36,192 nt of DNA from Acidimicrobiia bacterium (GTDB lineage: Bacteria; Actinomycetota; Acidimicrobiia; IMCC26256; PALSA-610). Below are positions 23,805 to 34,165 of the stretch, in pieces. The position numbers and the translations under genes were made by a program. Location of the stretch: contig DATBAK010000074.1 of the NCBI GenBank assembly GCA_036271555.1, positions 1 to 36,192 of the forward strand, in the 5' to 3' direction. Every line of letters begins with the position of its first letter. Position 1 is the first letter of the stretch. The notes below the pieces were generated by a model. That model had not been told where the DNA came from, searched no databases, and was given only the letters and a program-made list of their open reading frames with translations.

Positions 23805-26800
23805 ATGGCCGTGCGGGTGCAGTGGGTGGGCTACGGCCGGGAGGCGGCCGAGGCGCTGCGAGCCGAGATCGCGCGGGCCAAGGGCGGGGATCCGCTCGCG
23901 CCGGCGACGGTCGTCGTGCCGTCGAACCACGTCGGCGTGGCCGCCCGCCGGCTGCTCGCGTCGGGAGCGCTCGGGCCGGTCACCGGCACGGCCGCGGGCG
24001 TCGTCGCGGTGTCGTTCGTCACCCCGTTCCGGCTCGCGGAGCTGCTCGCCGCGCCCGTGCTCGCGGGTTCGGGCCGCCGGCCGGTGTCGACGCCGGTCAT
24101 CGCGGCGGGCCTCCGCGCGACCCTGCACGACTCGCCCGGGCTCTTCGCGCCGGTCGCGGAGCATCCCGCAACCGAGACCGCGCTCGTCGCGACCTACCGG
24201 GAGCTGCGCGAGGTGTCGGACGCGGGGCTCGACGCGATCGCGCGCACCGGCCGGCGCGCGTCGGAGGTCGTGCGCGTCCATCGCGCGACGCGCGCCCGGC
24301 TCGAACCCGGCTGGTACGACGAGCAAGACCTCATGCGCGCCGCGGTCGACGCGATCGGCGCGGGCGGGTCGCCGCCGTTGCGCGACCTCGGCACGCCGGT
24401 CCTCTACCTGCCGCAACGATTGACACCGCACATGCTGCGAATGCTCGCGACGCTGGCCGCCGCGCGCGACCTCGCGATCGTCGTGGGCACGACCGGCGTC
24501 GAGCGCGCCGACGCGGAGGTCGCGCGCGCGATCGCAACCTTGACGGATGCCGCGGGCGCGGCAAGCGGGCCCGCGCCCGCGCCGGTCGCGACACGAGAAC
24601 GGACACGAATCGTCATCGCGTCCGACGCCGACGACGAGGTGCGCGCCGCGGTGCGCCGGGTCGTCGAGGCGGTTCGCGCCGGCACGCCCCTCGACCGCAT
24701 CGCGATCCTGCACGCCGCCACCGAGCCCTACGCGCGTCTCGTGCACGAGCACCTCGCGGCCGCGGGCATCCCGAGCAACGGGCCGTCGGTCGTGCCCCTC
24801 GCGGGTCGCGTCGCGGGACGCGCGCTGCTCGGCCTGCTCGCGCTTCCGGAGCGCGATTTCCGCCGCCAGGACGTCTTCGCCTGGCTCGCGACCGCGCCGG
24901 TGCTGCGCCGGGGCGTGTGGGCACCGGTCGTCGCGTGGGAACGGCTGTCGCGCGCGGCCGGCGTCGTGTCGGGGCGCGCGCAATGGGAGACGCGGCTCGG
25001 CCGCTTCGTCGACGAGCTCGACGTGAAGATCGCGGCCGCCGAGAACGACGACACACGCGACACACGCGACCCATCCGACGACTGGCGCGTCGCCCGCGAT
25101 CGTCGCAACGCGACGCGCGCTCGCGAGCTGCGCGACTTCGTCGTCGGCCTCATCGACGACCTCGCGCGCGCGGCCGCGAAGCCGCGCGGCTGGGCCGAGC
25201 ACGCAGCCTGGGCGCGGCGCACGCTCACCGCCGTCGTCGGCAGTCCGGCGTCGCGCGACGACTGGCCGGCCGACGAGCGCAAGGCGGCGGAGCGCGTCGA
25301 CGCCGCGCTCGGCCGCCTCGCCGCGCTCGACGCCGTCGAGGGCGCGGTGCTGCTCGACGTGTTCACCCGCACGCTCGCGCTCGAGCTCGAGAACGACCTC
25401 GGTCGCATCGGCCGGTTCGGCGACGGCGTGCTCGTCGGCCCGATCGCGATGGGAGTGGGGCTCGACCTCGAGCTCGTCGCGGTGCTCGGCCTCGCCGAGG
25501 GCACGTGCCCCGCGCCCGTGCGCGACGACTCGCTCCTCCCCGACCAGGAGCGCGAGGCCGCGGCCGGCGAGCTCCCGCTCCGGCGCGCACGCGTCGACCG
25601 CGAGCACCGCGAGCTCATCGCCGCGCTGGCGAGCGCGCGGCAACAGCTCCTCGGCGTACCGCGCGGCGACCTGCGCCACAGCACCGACCTGGTGCCGTCA
25701 CGCTGGGTGCTCGACCTCGCGTCGGCCCTCTCCGGTGAGTCGTGGTGGAGCGAGGAGCTCTTCACCGCCGACGTCGATTGGATCGAACCGGTCGCGTCGT
25801 TCGACGCCGGTCTCCGCGCGCTCGACTTTCCCGCGACCGAGCAGGAGCACCACCTGCGCACGCTGCTCGCGTCGCCCCCGGCGAACGCGGCGGCGCTCGC
25901 GGGGCGCACCGACGACGCCGTGCTCGCGGGAAACGCAGCCGTGGTCGCGGCCCGTCGCAGCTCGGCGTTCACGCGCTTCGACGGCAACCTGACGGGGCTC
26001 GCGGTGCCGTCGCCGGTCGCGAGCGTCACGTCGGCGACGCGCTTGCAGACCTGGTCGAGCTGCCCGTTCGCGTACTTCGTCGAGTCGATCCTGCGCGTCG
26101 AGCCCGTCGAGAACCCCGAAGAGATCGTGCAGATCGGCGCGCTCGACCGCGGATCGCTCGTGCACGAAGCGCTCGAGAAGTTCGTGCTCGAGATGCTCGC
26201 GGCGCCACCGGCGCCCAACGCACCGTGGACCACGAAGCAACGCGCGCGCATGATCGAGATCGGCGACGCGATCTGCGAGCAGTACGAGGCGCGCGGCGTC
26301 ACCGGCCGTTCGCTGTACTGGGGGCGCGATCGGCGCCGCGTGCTCGCCGACCTCGAGCGCTTCCTCGTCGAGGACGACCGGCTGCGCGCCGCGCTGCGCA
26401 CCACGCCGGTCGCGGCGGAGCTCCCGTTCGGTCTCCGCGACGGCATCGATCCGGTGCCCCTGCGGCTCGCCGACGGACGGTTGCTCCACTTCCGCGGGAT
26501 GGCCGACCGCGTCGACCGCGCCGACGACGGCAGCCTCCTCGTCCTCGACTACAAGACCGGCAAGCGCGATCACTACAAGGGGCTCAGCGCCGAGAACCCC
26601 GACCGCGGCGGCTCGCTCCTCCAGCTTCCCGTGTACGGCGTCGCGGCTCGCATGCATCAACGCACGCCGGACGCGCCGGTGCGCGCGCTGTATTGGTTCG
26701 TCTCGCAGCGCGGCGAGTTCAAGTTCGAGGGCTACGACGTGACCGACGGCGTGCTCGACCTCGTCGGCGCGACCCTCGGCTGGGTCATCGCGGGCATCGA

Positions 26801-26990
26801 AGCCGGGATCTTCGCGTCGCACCCGACGCAGACGAGCACCGCGATCTTCAACGAGTGCCCCTCGTGCAACCCCGACGAGCTCGGTGTCACCGAGCTGCGC
26901 AGCGCGTGGGAGCGCAAACGCGACGACGCCGCACTGGTGCCCTACTCGAAGTTCGCGGAGCCCTACGAGGACGAGGCCGGCGATGCCTGA
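23805..26990 (+). CDS. addB: AddB-like subunit of an AddAB/RecBCD-type helicase-nuclease (PD-(D/E)XK)
   Basis: The protein is 1061 residues. The N-terminal two thirds resemble the inactivated helicase of AddB; no clear Walker A is seen (VGYGREAAEAL in its place). The C-terminal RecB-type nuclease has His787 (LVHEALEKF), Asp in FRGMADRVD, Asp915 and Lys917 in LDYKTGK, and QLPVYG. Cys in TWSSCPFAYF (about 753) and the two in NECPSCNPDEL (about 1017-1020) match three of four ligands of the AddB iron-sulfur cluster; the fourth is missing. With AddA it would process double-strand DNA ends for RecA. It is followed by repeat copy H and then addA. The symbol is given by architecture only. Confidence 0.82.
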   Translation: MAVRVQWVGYGREAAEALRAEIARAKGGDPLAPATVVVPSNHVGVAARRLLASGALGPVTGTAAGVVAVSFVTPFRLAELLAAPVLAGSGRRPVSTPVIAAGLRATLHDSPGLFAPVAEHPATETALVATYRELREVSDAGLDAIARTGRRASEVVRVHRATRARLEPGWYDEQDLMRAAVDAIGAGGSPPLRDLGTPVLYLPQRLTPHMLRMLATLAAARDLAIVVGTTGVERADAEVARAIATLTDAAGAASGPAPAPVATRERTRIVIASDADDEVRAAVRRVVEAVRAGTPLDRIAILHAATEPYARLVHEHLAAAGIPSNGPSVVPLAGRVAGRALLGLLALPERDFRRQDVFAWLATAPVLRRGVWAPVVAWERLSRAAGVVSGRAQWETRLGRFVDELDVKIAAAENDDTRDTRDPSDDWRVARDRRNATRARELRDFVVGLIDDLARAAAKPRGWAEHAAWARRTLTAVVGSPASRDDWPADERKAAERVDAALGRLAALDAVEGAVLLDVFTRTLALELENDLGRIGRFGDGVLVGPIAMGVGLDLELVAVLGLAEGTCPAPVRDDSLLPDQEREAAAGELPLRRARVDREHRELIAALASARQQLLGVPRGDLRHSTDLVPSRWVLDLASALSGESWWSEELFTADVDWIEPVASFDAGLRALDFPATEQEHHLRTLLASPPANAAALAGRTDDAVLAGNAAVVAARRSSAFTRFDGNLTGLAVPSPVASVTSATRLQTWSSCPFAYFVESILRVEPVENPEEIVQIGALDRGSLVHEALEKFVLEMLAAPPAPNAPWTTKQRARMIEIGDAICEQYEARGVTGRSLYWGRDRRRVLADLERFLVEDDRLRAALRTTPVAAELPFGLRDGIDPVPLRLADGRLLHFRGMADRVDRADDGSLLVLDYKTGKRDHYKGLSAENPDRGGSLLQLPVYGVAARMHQRTPDAPVRALYWFVSQRGEFKFEGYDVTDGVLDLVGATLGWVIAGIEAGIFASHPTQTSTAIFNECPSCNPDELGVTELRSAWERKRDDAALVPYSKFAEPYEDEAGDA

Positions 26991-27045: not shown

Positions 27046-27092
27046 TCGGACGGGCCGCAGTGCGACCCGTCCGTTCCGGAAGGAGCGCACCG

Positions 27093-30000
27093 ATGAGCCC
27101 GGATCCGCCGACTCTCGCGGATCAGGTCGCACGCGACCGGATCGCGCGCGATCTCGACGCGACCTTGTTCGTCGAGGCGGGCGCCGGTTCGGGCAAGACG
27201 CGATCGCTCGTCGAGCGCGTGATCGCGCTCGTCGGGTCGGGAGCGGCCGAGCTCCGCGCGATCGCCGCGATCACGTTCACGGAGAAGGCCGGCGCCGAGC
27301 TGCGCGACCGGCTCCGCCGTGAGCTGCAAGCGCGCGTGAGCGACGCGACCGATGCCGACGGCACCCGGCGCTTCCGCGACGCGCTCGACCAGCTCGACAG
27401 CGCCGCGATCGGCACGCTGCACTCGTTCGCGCAACGGATCCTGTCCGAGAACCCGATCGAGGCAGGGCTGCCGCCGCGCGTCGAGGTGCTCGACGCGGTC
27501 AGCTCGGGCGTCGAGTTCGAGCGGCGCTGGGGCACGTTCCGCGACCGGCTGTTCGAGGATCCCGCGGTCGCGCGCGCCCTGCTGATCTTCGACGCCGCGG
27601 GCGTCCGCATCCGGGCGCTCGACGTGCTCGCGGCCGCGTTCGGCGAGAACTGGGACCTCGTCGAGACCCAGGTGCCCGAGACCGCGCCCGCACCGCCCGA
27701 CGCGCGCACCGCGCTCGCGCCGCTCCTCGACGAGCTCGTCGACATCTGCCACGAGCGGCACGGATGCCGTGAGCTCGAAGACAAGCTCAGCGCGCGCCTC
27801 GAGCAGGTGGCGAACCGCCTCGACGGCGTCCGCAGCCTCGACGAGCTCGACCTGCTCGAGGTCGTGTCGAGCGGTGAGCTCAAGGTCGCGAGGAACATCG
27901 GTCAGCAGCGGAACTGGCCCGACGTCGGCGCCGTGCGCGACCGGTTGAAAAGCGCGTTCGAGGCGCTCGAGCAGGCCCGCGTCGACGTGTGCATCGCCGC
28001 GGCGAAGCAGATCGCGAGCGCGATCCGCACGTTCACGCTCGAGGCCGCCGCCGAGCGGCGCGCCGCGGGCCGGCTCGAGTTCCACGACCTCCTCGTGCTC
28101 GCGCGCGCGCTGCTGCGCGACCCGAACCACGGCGCGACCGTGCGGGAGCGCCTCCACGCGCGCTATCAGCGGTTGCTGCTCGACGAGTTCCAGGACGCCG
28201 ACCCGATCCAGATCGAGCTCGCCGTCCGCATCGCGGCGGCGGATCCCGGGAGCGCCGACGCGGGCGAGCGATCGTGGGATCAGGTGGCCGTTGCGCCCGG
28301 GCACCTCTTCGTCGTCGGCGACCCGAAGCAGTCGATCTACCGGTTCCGGCGGGCCGACATCGGCACGTTCCTCGCGGCGCGCGATCGCTTCGCCGACGAG
28401 CGGGGCATGCCCGTCGAGCTGACCGCCAACTTCCGCACCGTCGAGCCCGTCATCGACTTCGTGAACGAGGTCTTCGCGGCGCTCATGACCGAGCCGCCCG
28501 AGAACGAGCTGCCGCTCGTGTCGCGGCCTCCGTACCTCGCGCTCGACCCGCAGCGCGACACACCGCCCGCCGGCGCACCCACCGCGGTCCTCGGGCGCGA
28601 GGAACACCCGGCCGACGTGAGCGCCGACGACCTGCGCGCGGAGGAAGCGAACGAGGTCGCGGCCGCGGTCGCCGGCATCCTCGCGGGCGGATGGTCGGTC
28701 GACGACGGCAACGACGGCTGGCGGCCGGCGCGCCTCGCCGACATCGCGATCCTCCTGCCCGCGCGCACCTCGCTCCCGTTCCTCCAGGACGCGCTCGACG
28801 GTGAAGGCATCGCGTACCGCTCCGAGTCGAGCTCGCTCGTGTACGCGACGCGCACGGTGCGCGACCTCATGATGGTGCTGCGCGCCGTCGACGACCCGAC
28901 GAACGAGCTGCACCTCGTCGCCGCGCTGCGGTCGACACTGATCGGCTGTGGCGACGACGACCTCTTCCGGTTCAAGGTCGAGCGCAAGGGATCGTGGAGC
29001 CTTCGGCACGAGCCGCCGCCGACCGTGCCCGACGACGATCCCGTCCGCCGTGCGCTCGCCTACCTGCGAACGCTGTACGACCGCCGTCACTGGGACGCGC
29101 CGTCGGAGCTGCTCGACCGCATCGCACGCGACCGCCGCGCCTTCGAGCTCGGTTTCGCCGAGGGACGCCCGCGCGACGTGTGGCGGCAGCTGCGCTTCGT
29201 CATCGATCAGGCCCGCCAGTGGAGCGAGGCGACGAACGGCAACCTGCGCGAGTACCTGCGCTGGGTCGAGGTCCAGTCGGCCGAGGGGTCGCGCGTCCAG
29301 GAGTCGGTGCTGCCCGAGACCGACGACGACGCGGTGCGGATCATGACGATCCACGCGGCGAAGGGGCTCGAGTTCCCGATCACGATCGTGTCGGGAATGT
29401 CGACCGCACCGCAACGCCGCTACGCCCCGGCCGAGGTCGTGTTCCTGCCCTCGGGTGAGGTCGGGTACAAGTTCGGCAAGGCGATCCAGACGTCGGAGTA
29501 CCAGGACTGGAAGCCGATCGACGAGCAGATGGACTACGACGAGCGCATCCGCCTGCTCTACGTCGCGTGCACGCGAGCGCGCGACCACCTCGTCGTGTCG
29601 ATGCACCGCAAGGCCCGCAACCCGTCGGCAAACGGGCGCACGAACGCCGAGCTCCTGCACGACGGCGCCGCGGCGCGCCTCGACGCCCTGCCCGATGCAG
29701 TGCAGCCCGAACGGCAGCTCGCGCTCGGCACGGCGCGCGCGGTGACCGCCCCGGCCGCGCCGGTCATGCCGTTCGCGGAGTGGCAACGCGAGCGCGCCGA
29801 CGCGCTCGGGCGCGCGTCGCGCCCGACGGCGGTCGCCGCGACCGCGCTCACCGACGACGGCGACCACGATCCTGCGGGCGACCTCGGCGCGGGGCTGCAG
29901 AAGCGACCGCGCGACCTCGACCTGCCGCCGTGGTTGAAGGGTCGCTACGGCACGGCGGTCGGGCGCGCGGTGCACGGCGTGCTGCAGACGATCGACTTGG

Positions 30001-30497
30001 CGACGGCCGCGGGCATCGACGCCGCGGTTGCCGCGCAGTGCGAGGCCGAGGCGATCCCCGATCGCGCCGAGCAAGTGCGCGCGCTCGTCGACGCCGCGCT
30101 CGGCGCACCCGCGGTGCGCGCCGCGGCCGCGGCCGCGCACTGGCGCGAGGTCTATGCGTGCGCGCCCATCGACGGCCGGTTGCTCGAGGGCTACATCGAC
30201 CTCCTCTACCGCGGGACGGAAGGGCTCGTGGTCGTCGACTACAAGACCGCGGCGACCGACGACCGCGCCGAGCTCGATCGCCGGCGCGCGGGCTACCGCC
30301 TCCAGGGCGCGAGCTACGCGCTCACGATCGCGGCGACGACGGGCGAGCCGGTCGCGCGCGTCACGTTCCTGTTCCTCACACCGCACGGCGCGGTGGAGCT
30401 CGACCTCGAGGATCTCGACGCCGCGGTCGCCGACGTGCGCGCGCTCGTCGCCGCCGGTCAGGAGATCGTGATCGAAGACATGGAAAGATCGGCCTGA
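27093..30497 (+). CDS. addA: AddA-like UvrD-family helicase-nuclease
   Basis: The protein is 1134 residues. The ATP-binding Walker A EAGAGSGKT is at 28-36, ITFTEKAGAELRDRL follows, Walker B LLLDEFQDADPIQ is near 361-373, and VGDPKQSIYRFRRADI is motif III. The helicase C-terminal half has RIMTIHAAKGLEFPIT and LLYVACTRARDHLV. The nuclease domain has GRAVHGVLQ, the acidic residue in GYIDLLY, Asp1049 and Lys1051 in VVDYKTAATDD, and YRLQGASYAL, so it looks active. I chose ATG 27093 with AAGGAG 7 nt upstream; an in-frame ATG at 27060 lies in the leader. It partners the AddB-like subunit in double-strand-break end resection. Confidence 0.9.
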   Translation: MSPDPPTLADQVARDRIARDLDATLFVEAGAGSGKTRSLVERVIALVGSGAAELRAIAAITFTEKAGAELRDRLRRELQARVSDATDADGTRRFRDALDQLDSAAIGTLHSFAQRILSENPIEAGLPPRVEVLDAVSSGVEFERRWGTFRDRLFEDPAVARALLIFDAAGVRIRALDVLAAAFGENWDLVETQVPETAPAPPDARTALAPLLDELVDICHERHGCRELEDKLSARLEQVANRLDGVRSLDELDLLEVVSSGELKVARNIGQQRNWPDVGAVRDRLKSAFEALEQARVDVCIAAAKQIASAIRTFTLEAAAERRAAGRLEFHDLLVLARALLRDPNHGATVRERLHARYQRLLLDEFQDADPIQIELAVRIAAADPGSADAGERSWDQVAVAPGHLFVVGDPKQSIYRFRRADIGTFLAARDRFADERGMPVELTANFRTVEPVIDFVNEVFAALMTEPPENELPLVSRPPYLALDPQRDTPPAGAPTAVLGREEHPADVSADDLRAEEANEVAAAVAGILAGGWSVDDGNDGWRPARLADIAILLPARTSLPFLQDALDGEGIAYRSESSSLVYATRTVRDLMMVLRAVDDPTNELHLVAALRSTLIGCGDDDLFRFKVERKGSWSLRHEPPPTVPDDDPVRRALAYLRTLYDRRHWDAPSELLDRIARDRRAFELGFAEGRPRDVWRQLRFVIDQARQWSEATNGNLREYLRWVEVQSAEGSRVQESVLPETDDDAVRIMTIHAAKGLEFPITIVSGMSTAPQRRYAPAEVVFLPSGEVGYKFGKAIQTSEYQDWKPIDEQMDYDERIRLLYVACTRARDHLVVSMHRKARNPSANGRTNAELLHDGAAARLDALPDAVQPERQLALGTARAVTAPAAPVMPFAEWQRERADALGRASRPTAVAATALTDDGDHDPAGDLGAGLQKRPRDLDLPPWLKGRYGTAVGRAVHGVLQTIDLATAAGIDAAVAAQCEAEAIPDRAEQVRALVDAALGAPAVRAAAAAAHWREVYACAPIDGRLLEGYIDLLYRGTEGLVVVDYKTAATDDRAELDRRRAGYRLQGASYALTIAATTGEPVARVTFLFLTPHGAVELDLEDLDAAVADVRALVAAGQEIVIEDMERSA

Positions 30498-30624: not shown

Positions 30625-31491
30625 ATGACAATGCAGACGATCGAACTGGAAGGCCGCGACGGACTGCGGTTGGCCGCCGATGTCGAGGGCGATCCGGACG
30701 CGCCCCCCGTGGTGCTCTTCCACGGCGGCGGGCAGACGCGGCACGCGTGGGGCACGACGCTCGCGGTGCTCGGCCGGAATTGGCGCGCGTACTCGGTCGA
30801 CCTGCGGGGCCACGGCGACAGCGCCTGGGCACCCGACGGCGACTACAGCCTCGACGCGTTCGCGGGCGACGTGCGCGCCGTCGCACGCGCATTGCCGCGC
30901 CCACCGGCGCTCGTCGGCGCGTCGCTCGGCGGCATCGCATCGCTGACCGCGATCGCGGAGACGCCTCCGCCGGCGCTCGCGACCGCGCTCGTGCTCGTCG
31001 ACGTCGCGCCGCGCATCGAAGCCGCGGGCGTCACCCGCATCGGCGACTTCATGAAGGGCAACCTCGACGGATTCGAGTCGCTCGAAGCAGTGGCCGACAC
31101 GATCAGCGCGTACAACCCGCACCGGCCGCGCCCGAAGAACCTCGACGGGCTCAAGAAGAACCTGCGCCAGCGCGCCGACGGCCGGTGGGTCTGGCACTGG
31201 GACCCGCGCTTCGTGAGCGGACGATTCGGCTCACCGGACGAGACGCGCTCGACGCTCGTCGACGGCGACCGGCTCCAACGCGCCGCGCGCACGCTCACGA
31301 TCCCGACGCTCCTCGTGCGCGGCCGCATGAGCGACCTGCTGAGCGAGCAAGGCGCGCGCGAGCTGCTCGAGCTCGTGCCCCATGCGCAGCTCGCCGACGT
31401 CGCGGGGGCCGGGCACATGGTCGCGGGCGACCGGAACGACGCGTTCAACGATGCCGTCGTCGAGTTCCTCGCCTCCGTGCGCCCCACCTGA
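30625..31491 (+). CDS. Alpha/beta hydrolase
   Basis: The protein is 288 residues. The oxyanion loop LFHGGGQ (31-37), VDLRGHGDS (58-66), nucleophile elbow GASLGG with Ser100, and catalytic His264 in GAGHMV are all present; an Asp in the C-terminal strand should complete the triad. It hydrolyses an ester, lactone or C-C bond; the substrate is unknown. The ATG at 30625 directly follows repeat copy I; a second ATG lies at 30631. There is no classical ribosome-binding site, so expression may depend on the repeat-derived leader. Confidence 0.9.
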   Translation: MTMQTIELEGRDGLRLAADVEGDPDAPPVVLFHGGGQTRHAWGTTLAVLGRNWRAYSVDLRGHGDSAWAPDGDYSLDAFAGDVRAVARALPRPPALVGASLGGIASLTAIAETPPPALATALVLVDVAPRIEAAGVTRIGDFMKGNLDGFESLEAVADTISAYNPHRPRPKNLDGLKKNLRQRADGRWVWHWDPRFVSGRFGSPDETRSTLVDGDRLQRAARTLTIPTLLVRGRMSDLLSEQGARELLELVPHAQLADVAGAGHMVAGDRNDAFNDAVVEFLASVRPT

Positions 31492-31561: not shown

Positions 31562-32209
31562 GTGGGAACCTCCGGTGCAGGCGCGTTCGCCTCGCGCGGC
31601 CGCGCGCGCGACTCCGCGTGGGAGCAGGGCGCGAGCGTCGAGCGGATCGTCGGCGCGTGGCTCGACCGCATTCCGGGCATCGAGGTGCTGCACGACCGCC
31701 GCCTCGTCGCCCGCCGCAGCCGGATGAAGGGCGAGACCCAGACCGTCGGCGCGTTCGGCGCCAACCCGACGCGCCACGCTCCCGATCGCGCGCCGAGGGT
31801 CGGAGCCACGCTGAGGATCGACCACCTCGCGATCTCGCCGGGCGGGGTGTTCGTCGTCGACGCCAAGCTGTCGGGCTGGCGGCTCGGACCCGTGGAGCTC
31901 CGGCACTCGACGCGTCCCCGTCCGGCCGAGCGCTCCGAGCGCGCCGAGGAGGAGCACGAGAAGCTCCTCGCCCGCATCGCGACGCAGGCCCGCGCGGTCG
32001 CGCGCCTGCTCGCCGACGCGCCGGTGCCGGTCGCGCCCGCCCTCTGTCTCGTCGACGCCCGGGGTGCCGAGGTCCTTCGCTCGGTCGTGCTCGACGGCGT
32101 GTGGGTGGGCACGCCGCCGGCGCTCCCCGAGCTCCTCGGCCACGCCGGCCTGCTCGACGGCGAGGCGATGCGCACCGTCGCGGCCCGGCTCGACGCCCGG
32201 CTGGCCTGA
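31562..32209 (+). CDS. NERD-domain protein 1 (nuclease-related, catalytic residues present)
   Basis: The protein is 215 residues from GTG 31562; the start is uncertain because no classical ribosome-binding site is near. The nuclease-related domain core is LRIDHLAISPGGVFVVDAKL, giving Asp87, Asp100 and Lys102 (D-x-K). The C-terminal half is ALCLVDARGAEVLR, then VVLDGVWVGTP and RTVAARLDARL. The NERD family belongs to the PD-(D/E)XK superfamily; its biological role is poorly defined. Sixty-four bp downstream lies a smaller paralog with degenerate active site. The AddAB genes lie just upstream. Confidence 0.8.
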   Translation: MGTSGAGAFASRGRARDSAWEQGASVERIVGAWLDRIPGIEVLHDRRLVARRSRMKGETQTVGAFGANPTRHAPDRAPRVGATLRIDHLAISPGGVFVVDAKLSGWRLGPVELRHSTRPRPAERSERAEEEHEKLLARIATQARAVARLLADAPVPVAPALCLVDARGAEVLRSVVLDGVWVGTPPALPELLGHAGLLDGEAMRTVAARLDARLA

Positions 32210-32273
32210 CGGGGCCGCCGAAGTTCCCGGCGATGGCTCAGGTCACCGGCTCGATGTGCCGACAACATTTCGG

Positions 32274-32789
32274 ATGACGAGCACCGATCCGGCCGCGTTC
32301 GTGGCCGCGCCGGTCGCGACCGCCCCGGTCGGCGATCTGCGCTTCGCCGACGAGCTGCGTGCGATCCCCGGCGTCGAGACCCTGCACGCGCGCGACATCC
32401 CCGGGACCCGCGCGCGCGTCGAGCACGTGGCGATCGGACCGAGTGGTGTCTGGGTGATCGAGGCGCACGACGCGCCGGGTCCGGTCGTGCGCCGCGACCG
32501 CCGGTTGTTCGTCGGTGTCCAGGACCGCAGCGATCTGCTCGAGGCGATCAAGGTGCCGGTCGACGCGGTCGCCGCCGCGCTCGGCGCCCTCCGACTGCCG
32601 ATCTCGCGCGCGCTGTGCTTCACGCGCGGAGACTGGGCCGCGCACCACGCACCCTTCATGTTGAACGGGGTGTGGGTCGGTCCGTCGAAGCCCCTCTGCG
32701 CGCTGCTCGCGCAGCCGGGTTCGCTGCAGACGCGCGACATCATGCACGCGGCACAGCTGCTCGACGCGCTGCTTCCCGTCGCCAGCTGA
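32274..32789 (+). CDS. NERD-like protein 2 (degenerate paralog)
   Basis: The protein is 171 residues from ATG 32274. It aligns with NERD protein 1 across both halves: RVEHVAIGPSGVWVIEAHD against the active core, and ALCFTRGDWAAH, MLNGVWVGPSKPLCALL and HAAQLLDALL against the C-terminal half. The three catalytic positions are changed: Asp to Glu50, Asp to Glu63 and Lys to His65. It lacks the ~37 residues ahead of the core that its neighbour has. A non-catalytic partner or regulator is plausible (inference). Confidence 0.75.
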   Translation: MTSTDPAAFVAAPVATAPVGDLRFADELRAIPGVETLHARDIPGTRARVEHVAIGPSGVWVIEAHDAPGPVVRRDRRLFVGVQDRSDLLEAIKVPVDAVAAALGALRLPISRALCFTRGDWAAHHAPFMLNGVWVGPSKPLCALLAQPGSLQTRDIMHAAQLLDALLPVAS

Positions 32790-32870: not shown

Positions 32871-33290
32871 TCAGCTGATCTTGAGGGTGAGCACGTTCGT
32901 CGAGCCCTTCAGGCCCAGGTCACCCGTGGCCTTGCCGGTGCCGTAGACGCACACGCCGAGCTCGAAGTTCGGCTTGATCACCGCGAACTTCTGCTTGCCG
33001 TTCAGGATCGTGACCGACTTCTTCGTCGGGTTCGTGATCGTGAAGCTCACGAGCTTCTTCGTGCACTTCGGCTGGGTCGTCGCCGCCGACCAGTGCACCT
33101 TCAGGGTCGCGGGCTTGAACGCGGCGGTGGCGCCCGCGCCCTTGATGTTCGAGTTCGGCACGGCCGCGGCCGTGACCGTCGTCGTGCTCATGCGCACCGA
33201 ATGCGACGCACCCGCGGGCGCGGCGAGACCCATGAACACCGACGCGACCGCGATCGCTACTGCACTGAAGACCTTTGCGGACTTGGCCAT
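32871..33290 (-). CDS. Small secreted protein, unknown function
   Basis: The protein is 139 residues. It has a clear signal peptide, MAKSAKVFSAVAIAVASVFM to LAAPAGA (about residues 1-27), and a mature part rich in Thr, Lys and Val with two cysteines (QPKCTKKL and LGVCVYG) that could form a disulfide. The pattern VHWSAATTQPKCTKKLVSFT looks like a small beta-sandwich; I do not recognise a family. ATG 33290 has GGAGGGG three bases upstream; a longer in-frame reading to 33416 lacks a ribosome-binding site. The gap 33291-33379 to the next gene holds nothing I recognise. Confidence 0.8.
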   Translation of the reverse strand: MAKSAKVFSAVAIAVASVFMGLAAPAGASHSVRMSTTTVTAAAVPNSNIKGAGATAAFKPATLKVHWSAATTQPKCTKKLVSFTITNPTKKSVTILNGKQKFAVIKPNFELGVCVYGTGKATGDLGLKGSTNVLTLKIS

Positions 33291-33379
33291 ATCCCCTCCG
33301 TGATCGGACTCCCGGTTGGGGCGCGACCCTAAGGTTCCGGACGCCCGCGCGACAAGCCTTCGGAGCCTTTGGAACGAGC

Positions 33380-34165
33380 TCACGCGTCGCTCGCGCGTTG
33401 CTCCACTTCGAGCCACAGCGGCATGCCGAGCGGACGTGCGGCCTCCTCGACCAGGTGGGCGACGAGCCCCGCGGTGCGGGCCACGAGCACGACGCCGCGC
33501 ACCGCGATCGGCGGCACACCGATGTCGACGAGCGCGGCGCCCGCCGCGCCCGCGCCGTTCACGGGCAGGTGGCGGCCGCTCTGCGCCTCGTGCGCGGCGG
33601 CGACGTGACGCAGCAGTCGCAGGTGCGGGCCGAGCAGATCCTCCGCCGCCGCGAGCTCGTAGAGCCGCGGCGTACGCGGGTCGTCGTCCTTGTGAACCGG
33701 ATGTCCCAGACCCGGCACCTTCAGACCCGCGGCCCGGCGGCGCGCGACCGCGTCGTCGGCGAGCGCGCGCAGCGCCTCGTCCTCGACGTCGTGCAGGCCT
33801 GCGAGCGTGTCGGCGAGGAACTGCGCGGTGTCGCCGGTCGGCCCCAGGAACACGCTGCCCGCACCGAGCAACCCGGCTGCGACCGCGCCCTGGATCGCCT
33901 CGGGCGCGCCCGTGTACGTGAGCCGCGCCGCGAGCGCGCTCGGCGTGAGCCCGTGGTCGGCGAGCGACACGAGCACCGCGTCGAGGATGCGGCGCTCACC
34001 CGGCGTCGGCTCGCGCCGCGTCACGAGCAGGTAGGTCAACTCGGTGAGGGTGAGTCGACCCATCACCTCGCTCGGCAGGTCGCGACCCGCGACGGTGATC
34101 GCATCGCGGGTCGCGCCACCGATCCACGTGCGCGCCCAGTCGTGCCCCTCGGCGTCGTTGGGCAC
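33380..34165 (-). CDS. Citryl-CoA lyase / citrate-synthase-family protein
   Basis: The protein is 261 residues, shorter than full citrate synthase (about 370-430), matching the short citryl-CoA-lyase-like branch. Motifs are GRDLPSEVMGRLTLTELTYLL, the GLGHPVHKDDDPRTPRL stretch equivalent to the GHRVYKxxDPR active-site segment, and the C-terminal GMPLWLEVEQ. It would cleave or form a CoA-linked C-C bond in a citrate-like compound; the natural substrate is not known. The GTG start overlaps the stop of the lipoprotein gene by one base (TAGTG), so translation is coupled. Confidence 0.82.
   Translation of the reverse strand: MPNDAEGHDWARTWIGGATRDAITVAGRDLPSEVMGRLTLTELTYLLVTRREPTPGERRILDAVLVSLADHGLTPSALAARLTYTGAPEAIQGAVAAGLLGAGSVFLGPTGDTAQFLADTLAGLHDVEDEALRALADDAVARRRAAGLKVPGLGHPVHKDDDPRTPRLYELAAAEDLLGPHLRLLRHVAAAHEAQSGRHLPVNGAGAAGAALVDIGVPPIAVRGVVLVARTAGLVAHLVEEAARPLGMPLWLEVEQRASDA

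Follow-up and report, generated by a model that had tools for sequence, protein, structure and literature searches.

Adjacent NERD-domain genes with an intact and an altered active site in an Acidimicrobiia genome

XPF-ERCC1 and the heteromeric tRNA-splicing endonucleases combine one catalytic with one degenerate paralogue in conserved, proven complexes, and archaeal tRNA-splicing endonucleases include two-gene forms. Such a combination is a possible mode for the two adjacent NERD-domain genes described here; the NERD pair, however, is known from one genome's sequence, and no description of a NERD pair was found in the literature at title and abstract level. NERD proteins are widespread but almost unstudied. 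Although SmdA of Staphylococcus aureus is without several of the residues most conserved among NERD domains, it has a cellular role, and its effects were abolished when other conserved residues were mutated; the authors of that study knew of no earlier functional test of a bacterial NERD domain (PMC9040797). By analogy, SmdA fits a use of the NERD domain that need not be catalytic. It shares with the second gene of the pair a NERD domain short of conserved residues, but it is membrane-anchored, solitary and has a role in cell division, and the NERD domain is the only tie seen between the two.

The window, i.e. the whole stretch of DNA that was analysed (36,192 nucleotides), carries the pair downstream of genes for both AddAB subunits.

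23805..26990, plus strand: AddB-type nuclease subunit (PF12705, 3.9e-32)
27060..30497, plus strand: AddA-type helicase-nuclease (PF00580, PF13361, PF12705)
30625..31491, plus strand: alpha/beta hydrolase, between AddA and the NERD pair (PF12697, 1.1e-18)
31562..32209, plus strand: gene 1, NERD-domain protein of 215 aa with a GTG start (PF08378, GC3 0.94)
32274..32789, plus strand: gene 2, NERD-domain protein of 171 aa with an ATG start (PF08378, GC3 0.91)

With scores of 28.4 bits (gene 1) and 24.0 bits (gene 2), both proteins exceed the Pfam gathering cut-off for NERD (PF08378, 22.1 bits), and in a single comparison they share 32% identity over 134 aligned residues (E 1e-9). Their codon-position GC is like that of the AddB, AddA and hydrolase neighbours, and since their GC3 matches that of AddA/AddB (0.93) both look like real coding genes. 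The longest open reading frame for gene 1 begins at 31382, and by codon-position GC this frame has no coding signal before about 31540. Only 64 nt separate gene 1 from gene 2 on the same strand, and the two may be co-transcribed. The description of the locus in the initial annotation as a tandem NERD pair beside AddAB is thus borne out, both for the pair, which is above the cut-off, co-directional and strongly coding, and for the identity of AddB (PF12705) and AddA (PF00580/PF13361). Neither protein matched any family of the PADLOC anti-phage defence models at E up to 1, and the pair had no match among the named families of NCBIfam. Just downstream, a minus-strand open reading frame (32871-33416) encodes a signal-peptide-like stretch and has no Pfam match.

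The two proteins differ in their active sites, which were located by alignment to the family consensus IDHxxVAPSGVWVIDAK.

31817..31867, plus strand: active-site segment of gene 1, IDHLAISPGGVFVVDAK
32418..32468, plus strand: active-site segment of gene 2, VEHVAIGPSGVWVIEAH

The conserved E...D...(D/E)xK residues are complete in gene 1, where E27, D87, D100 and K102 form an intact E-D-D-K, and incomplete in gene 2, which has D21, E50, E63 and H65 at these positions. The contrast drawn earlier between D-D-K in gene 1 and E-E-H in gene 2 is literally correct, but not all three substitutions carry the same weight. The real departures are Glu for Asp at the first core acid and His for Lys, whereas at the second acid Glu is one of the canonical residues of the PD-(D/E)XK superfamily, and 6 of the 81 aligned family members read D-E-K. 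Gene 2 is therefore off consensus at two core positions only, with a conservative change of Glu to Asp in the first helix as well. His at the Lys position occurs in none of the other aligned members (81 including gene 2). As a separate variant, Asn at the second acid (D-N-K, as in VINAKK) was seen in at least five NERD proteins (L095, L099, L160, L161 and L162).

Loss of the catalytic Lys is not peculiar to gene 2. With gene 2, 13 of the 81 aligned members are without it, a count in which some weaker rows are unsurely aligned at the catalytic columns and from which an 8-row alignment subset used in the scan of public genomes was excluded because it favours intact motifs. Of the other twelve, nine (in G001, G073, G084, G097, G200, G343, G347, G385 and G590) come from genomes in which no family member besides the Lys-less protein was found; the remaining three are in G079, G202 and G309. 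As natural Lys-less members are this common, the E...D...(D/E)xK residues are a mark of activity and not of NERD membership. That roughly one sixth of the detected members lack the catalytic Lys, mostly as the sole copy in their genome, suggests a recurring non-catalytic role, of which the window pair is a handy example with the intact and the Lys-less states side by side.

Structure prediction places gene 2 within the same fold as known nucleases. In its AlphaFold2 model (pLDDT 92.6), a helix at residues 19-29 bears D21, a strand at 48-55 bears E50 and a strand at 58-65 bears both E63 and H65, and this modelled order of helix and strands is the one expected for a PD-(D/E)XK site. A Foldseek search with the model returned nothing under E 0.001, and comparison of the family profile with PDB sequences gave nothing useful. 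When the model was realigned, most of the top structures were PD-(D/E)XK proteins, with Z 9.6 for Upx, 8.8 for an McrBC chain, 7.7 for Can2, 7.5 for a Pyrococcus abyssi repair endonuclease and 6.9 for Hjc, and with EndoMS also high in the list. Upx, the McrBC nuclease subunit, Can2/Card1, EndoMS and Hjc thus have the same fold as the gene 2 model (Z about 6 to 9.6) but show no significant sequence match to gene 2 and are distinct families. The gene 1 model is less certain (mean pLDDT 80), its confidence being low around residues 51-80 and 107-120. About 30 extra low-confidence residues lie between its first two strands, and both this insertion and the region of a lost hairpin are poorly defined; strands 69-74 and 77-80 of gene 2 have no counterpart in the gene 1 model.

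Both genes descend from a widespread, mostly single-copy actinobacterial NERD family. Typical members have a four-Cys ribbon, an AGxSAxxxYERR linker, a NERD core of the form KGAxGER...NIDHxxVxPSGVxVIDAK, the hairpin RLYVGGRDRTKL and a conserved C-terminal half. In 395 genomes of the class, searched with a profile of gene 1, gene 2 and the relative in G001, the open frames of the family span roughly 200-310 residues. A scan of public genomes yielded 407 relatives, and the 80 that were kept come from Acidimicrobiia, Cellulomonas, Nocardioides, Cryobacterium, Microbacterium and other actinobacteria, and from some Chloroflexi MAGs. Used as a single-protein query of the genome contigs, gene 2 found no relative; by tblastn against the intact member in G144, gene 2 aligns at 42% over 160 aa (1e-30) and gene 1 at 31% over 207 aa (3e-19). 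With this ribbon-NERD subfamily (PF08378) the pair shares the core fold, the E-D-D-K site in gene 1, and in gene 2 the hairpin (RRDRRLFVGVQDRSDLLEA) and the C-terminal half. It differs in that the genes lie side by side, gene 1 has neither the ribbon nor the RLYVGGRDRTKL hairpin, and gene 2 has lost the ribbon, the catalytic Lys and the first core Asp. In the alignment the N-terminal CxxC...CxxC ribbon is missing from gene 1, gene 2 and several other diverged members, which makes the two genes relatives of the ribbon-NERD subfamily and not typical members of it. At the other extreme, a member in G282 (L080:8748-10109) has two tandem four-Cys ribbons at its N-terminus. Short PF08378 matches, including a third in the window genome (C2 in G000), were considered as extra copies and rejected, as they cover profile positions 2-64 only; across the order their frames are mostly about 120-130 aa, and we take them to resemble UPF0102/YraN-type proteins.

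The family is found in a minority of the genomes searched, and the pair in a single one. A 40-row profile, which includes both window genes among its rows and matches them at 4.8e-50 and 8.3e-47, had a match in 73 of the 395 class genomes (E up to 0.001) and in 81 of 396 genomes of the phylum (E up to 1e-6). Across these two samples, which overlap somewhat and together cover about 750 distinct genomes, two full-length members within 5 kb were seen in the window genome only; the 14 sampled genomes of its taxonomic family include no other species of its genus. The proposal in the initial annotation of a functional pair is not supported here, with the pair seen in none of the other genomes searched and active-site-less members living alone in nine of them. 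A finding named there as a refutation, the second gene alone in close relatives, was nearly made: G001, of the same taxonomic family as the window genome, has a lone active-site-less member, which may or may not be orthologous to gene 2. Adjacent NERD genes of other kinds do occur, in other orientations and with a partner from another subfamily. For example, two different NERD genes are divergent in a Marmoricola MAG (L244:3024-4855), the second with NIDH and DSK intact. In an HGW-Actinobacteria-5 MAG (L262:3776-5774), an intact ribbon-NERD gene and a NERD gene from another subfamily are convergent; the site of the latter, IDH...INAGRH, has no lysine, and intact and degenerate genes are again neighbours in a different arrangement.

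As to the origin of the pair, a careful tree placed gene 2 with the intact class member in G144 (94/86), apart from gene 1; the AU test did not reject sisterhood of the two window genes (p 0.42), and with the other long rows removed they came out as sisters with support of 70. With branches as long as those of the two genes (1.96 and 1.69 changes per column), the trees do not settle between duplication and separate gain. In G144 a decaying duplicate fragment lies about 4 kb from the intact copy, which shows that local duplication does occur in the family. Tandem duplication followed by fast divergence would be the simplest reading, and the two fast-evolving genes have been eroded differently, gene 1 in its ribbon and hairpin and gene 2 in its ribbon and active site.

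Taken together, these results are best explained, with a probability of about 0.6, by a lineage-specific tandem pair, probably a product of duplication, of a putative nuclease (gene 1) and a pseudo-nuclease (gene 2) within a widespread NERD family in which the active site is recurrently lost. Duplication and rapid divergence of a NERD gene would have given rise to the pair in one lineage. Judging by its intact site, gene 1 probably hydrolyses nucleic acid as a metal-dependent PD-(D/E)XK phosphodiesterase. Gene 2, with its predicted fold and acidic metal-site residues kept and His in place of Lys, most likely would bind nucleic acid or metal without cutting. It probably has some function, because it retains full coding signal and an open frame despite its fast divergence.

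A closer partnership, as a heterodimer or a regulator and its effector, was envisaged for the pair in the initial annotation; this is possible but of low probability, and conservation lends it no support. In the heterodimer version, catalysis would fall to gene 1 and a structural, DNA-binding role to gene 2, the two having lost complementary parts. The tandem arrangement on one strand with a 64-nt gap, the coding signal of both genes and the complementary erosion seen in the alignment and in both models (no hairpin in gene 1, no active site in gene 2) would agree with it. It is nevertheless unlikely, given that the pair does not recur in about 750 genomes, that Lys-less members live alone elsewhere, and that fast evolution can by chance strip two proteins of different parts. 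Of similarly low probability is that duplication and complementary loss recently gave rise to a two-gene NERD nuclease, with a catalytic gene 1 and a non-catalytic gene 2 that would function only together.

Gene 2 could also still be a nuclease with an altered metal site. Its D-E-E-H keeps all acidic groups, in the confident model the three acids lie on the expected helix and strands, and residual activity may persist; moreover, the Lys is not universal in PD-(D/E)XK enzymes: BamHI and BglII, for example, are active restriction enzymes in which it is replaced. On the other hand, gene 2 has also lost the first core Asp, which most members retain, and no other of the 81 members has His at the Lys position, which makes an active gene 2 improbable. 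It is more doubtful still that both genes are drifting remnants on their way to loss; their long branches, the missing ribbon and other parts, and the absence of the family from most relatives would suit such decay, but both frames are open with GC3 of 0.94 and 0.91, and gene 2 is predicted to fold confidently.

AddA is present in 12 of the 14 genomes of the window genome's family, and in none of nine such relatives was a NERD gene found downstream of it, with only about 0.7-3 kb available for three of the nine. Among 60 family loci with flanks, many of which end at contig ends, AddAB was near one (G343), a rate not far from chance. The linkage is not conserved in these samples and lends no support to joint work of the pair with AddAB; that the pair lies downstream of AddAB is most likely a coincidence. 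A role for the pair in AddAB-dependent recombination, as a modulator or in the processing of ends, is very improbable, since its position on the same strand 1 kb downstream of AddA and the similarly placed Lys-less member of G343 are outweighed by the nine relatives, the single locus among 60 and the intervening alpha/beta hydrolase. G343 belongs to another taxonomic family; at its locus (L106:9680-17174) a distance of 3.4 kb separates AddAB from the Lys-less NERD gene, which is downstream on the same strand with other genes between, and a hydrolase-like gene adjoins it, recalling the order AddAB, hydrolase, NERD of the window.
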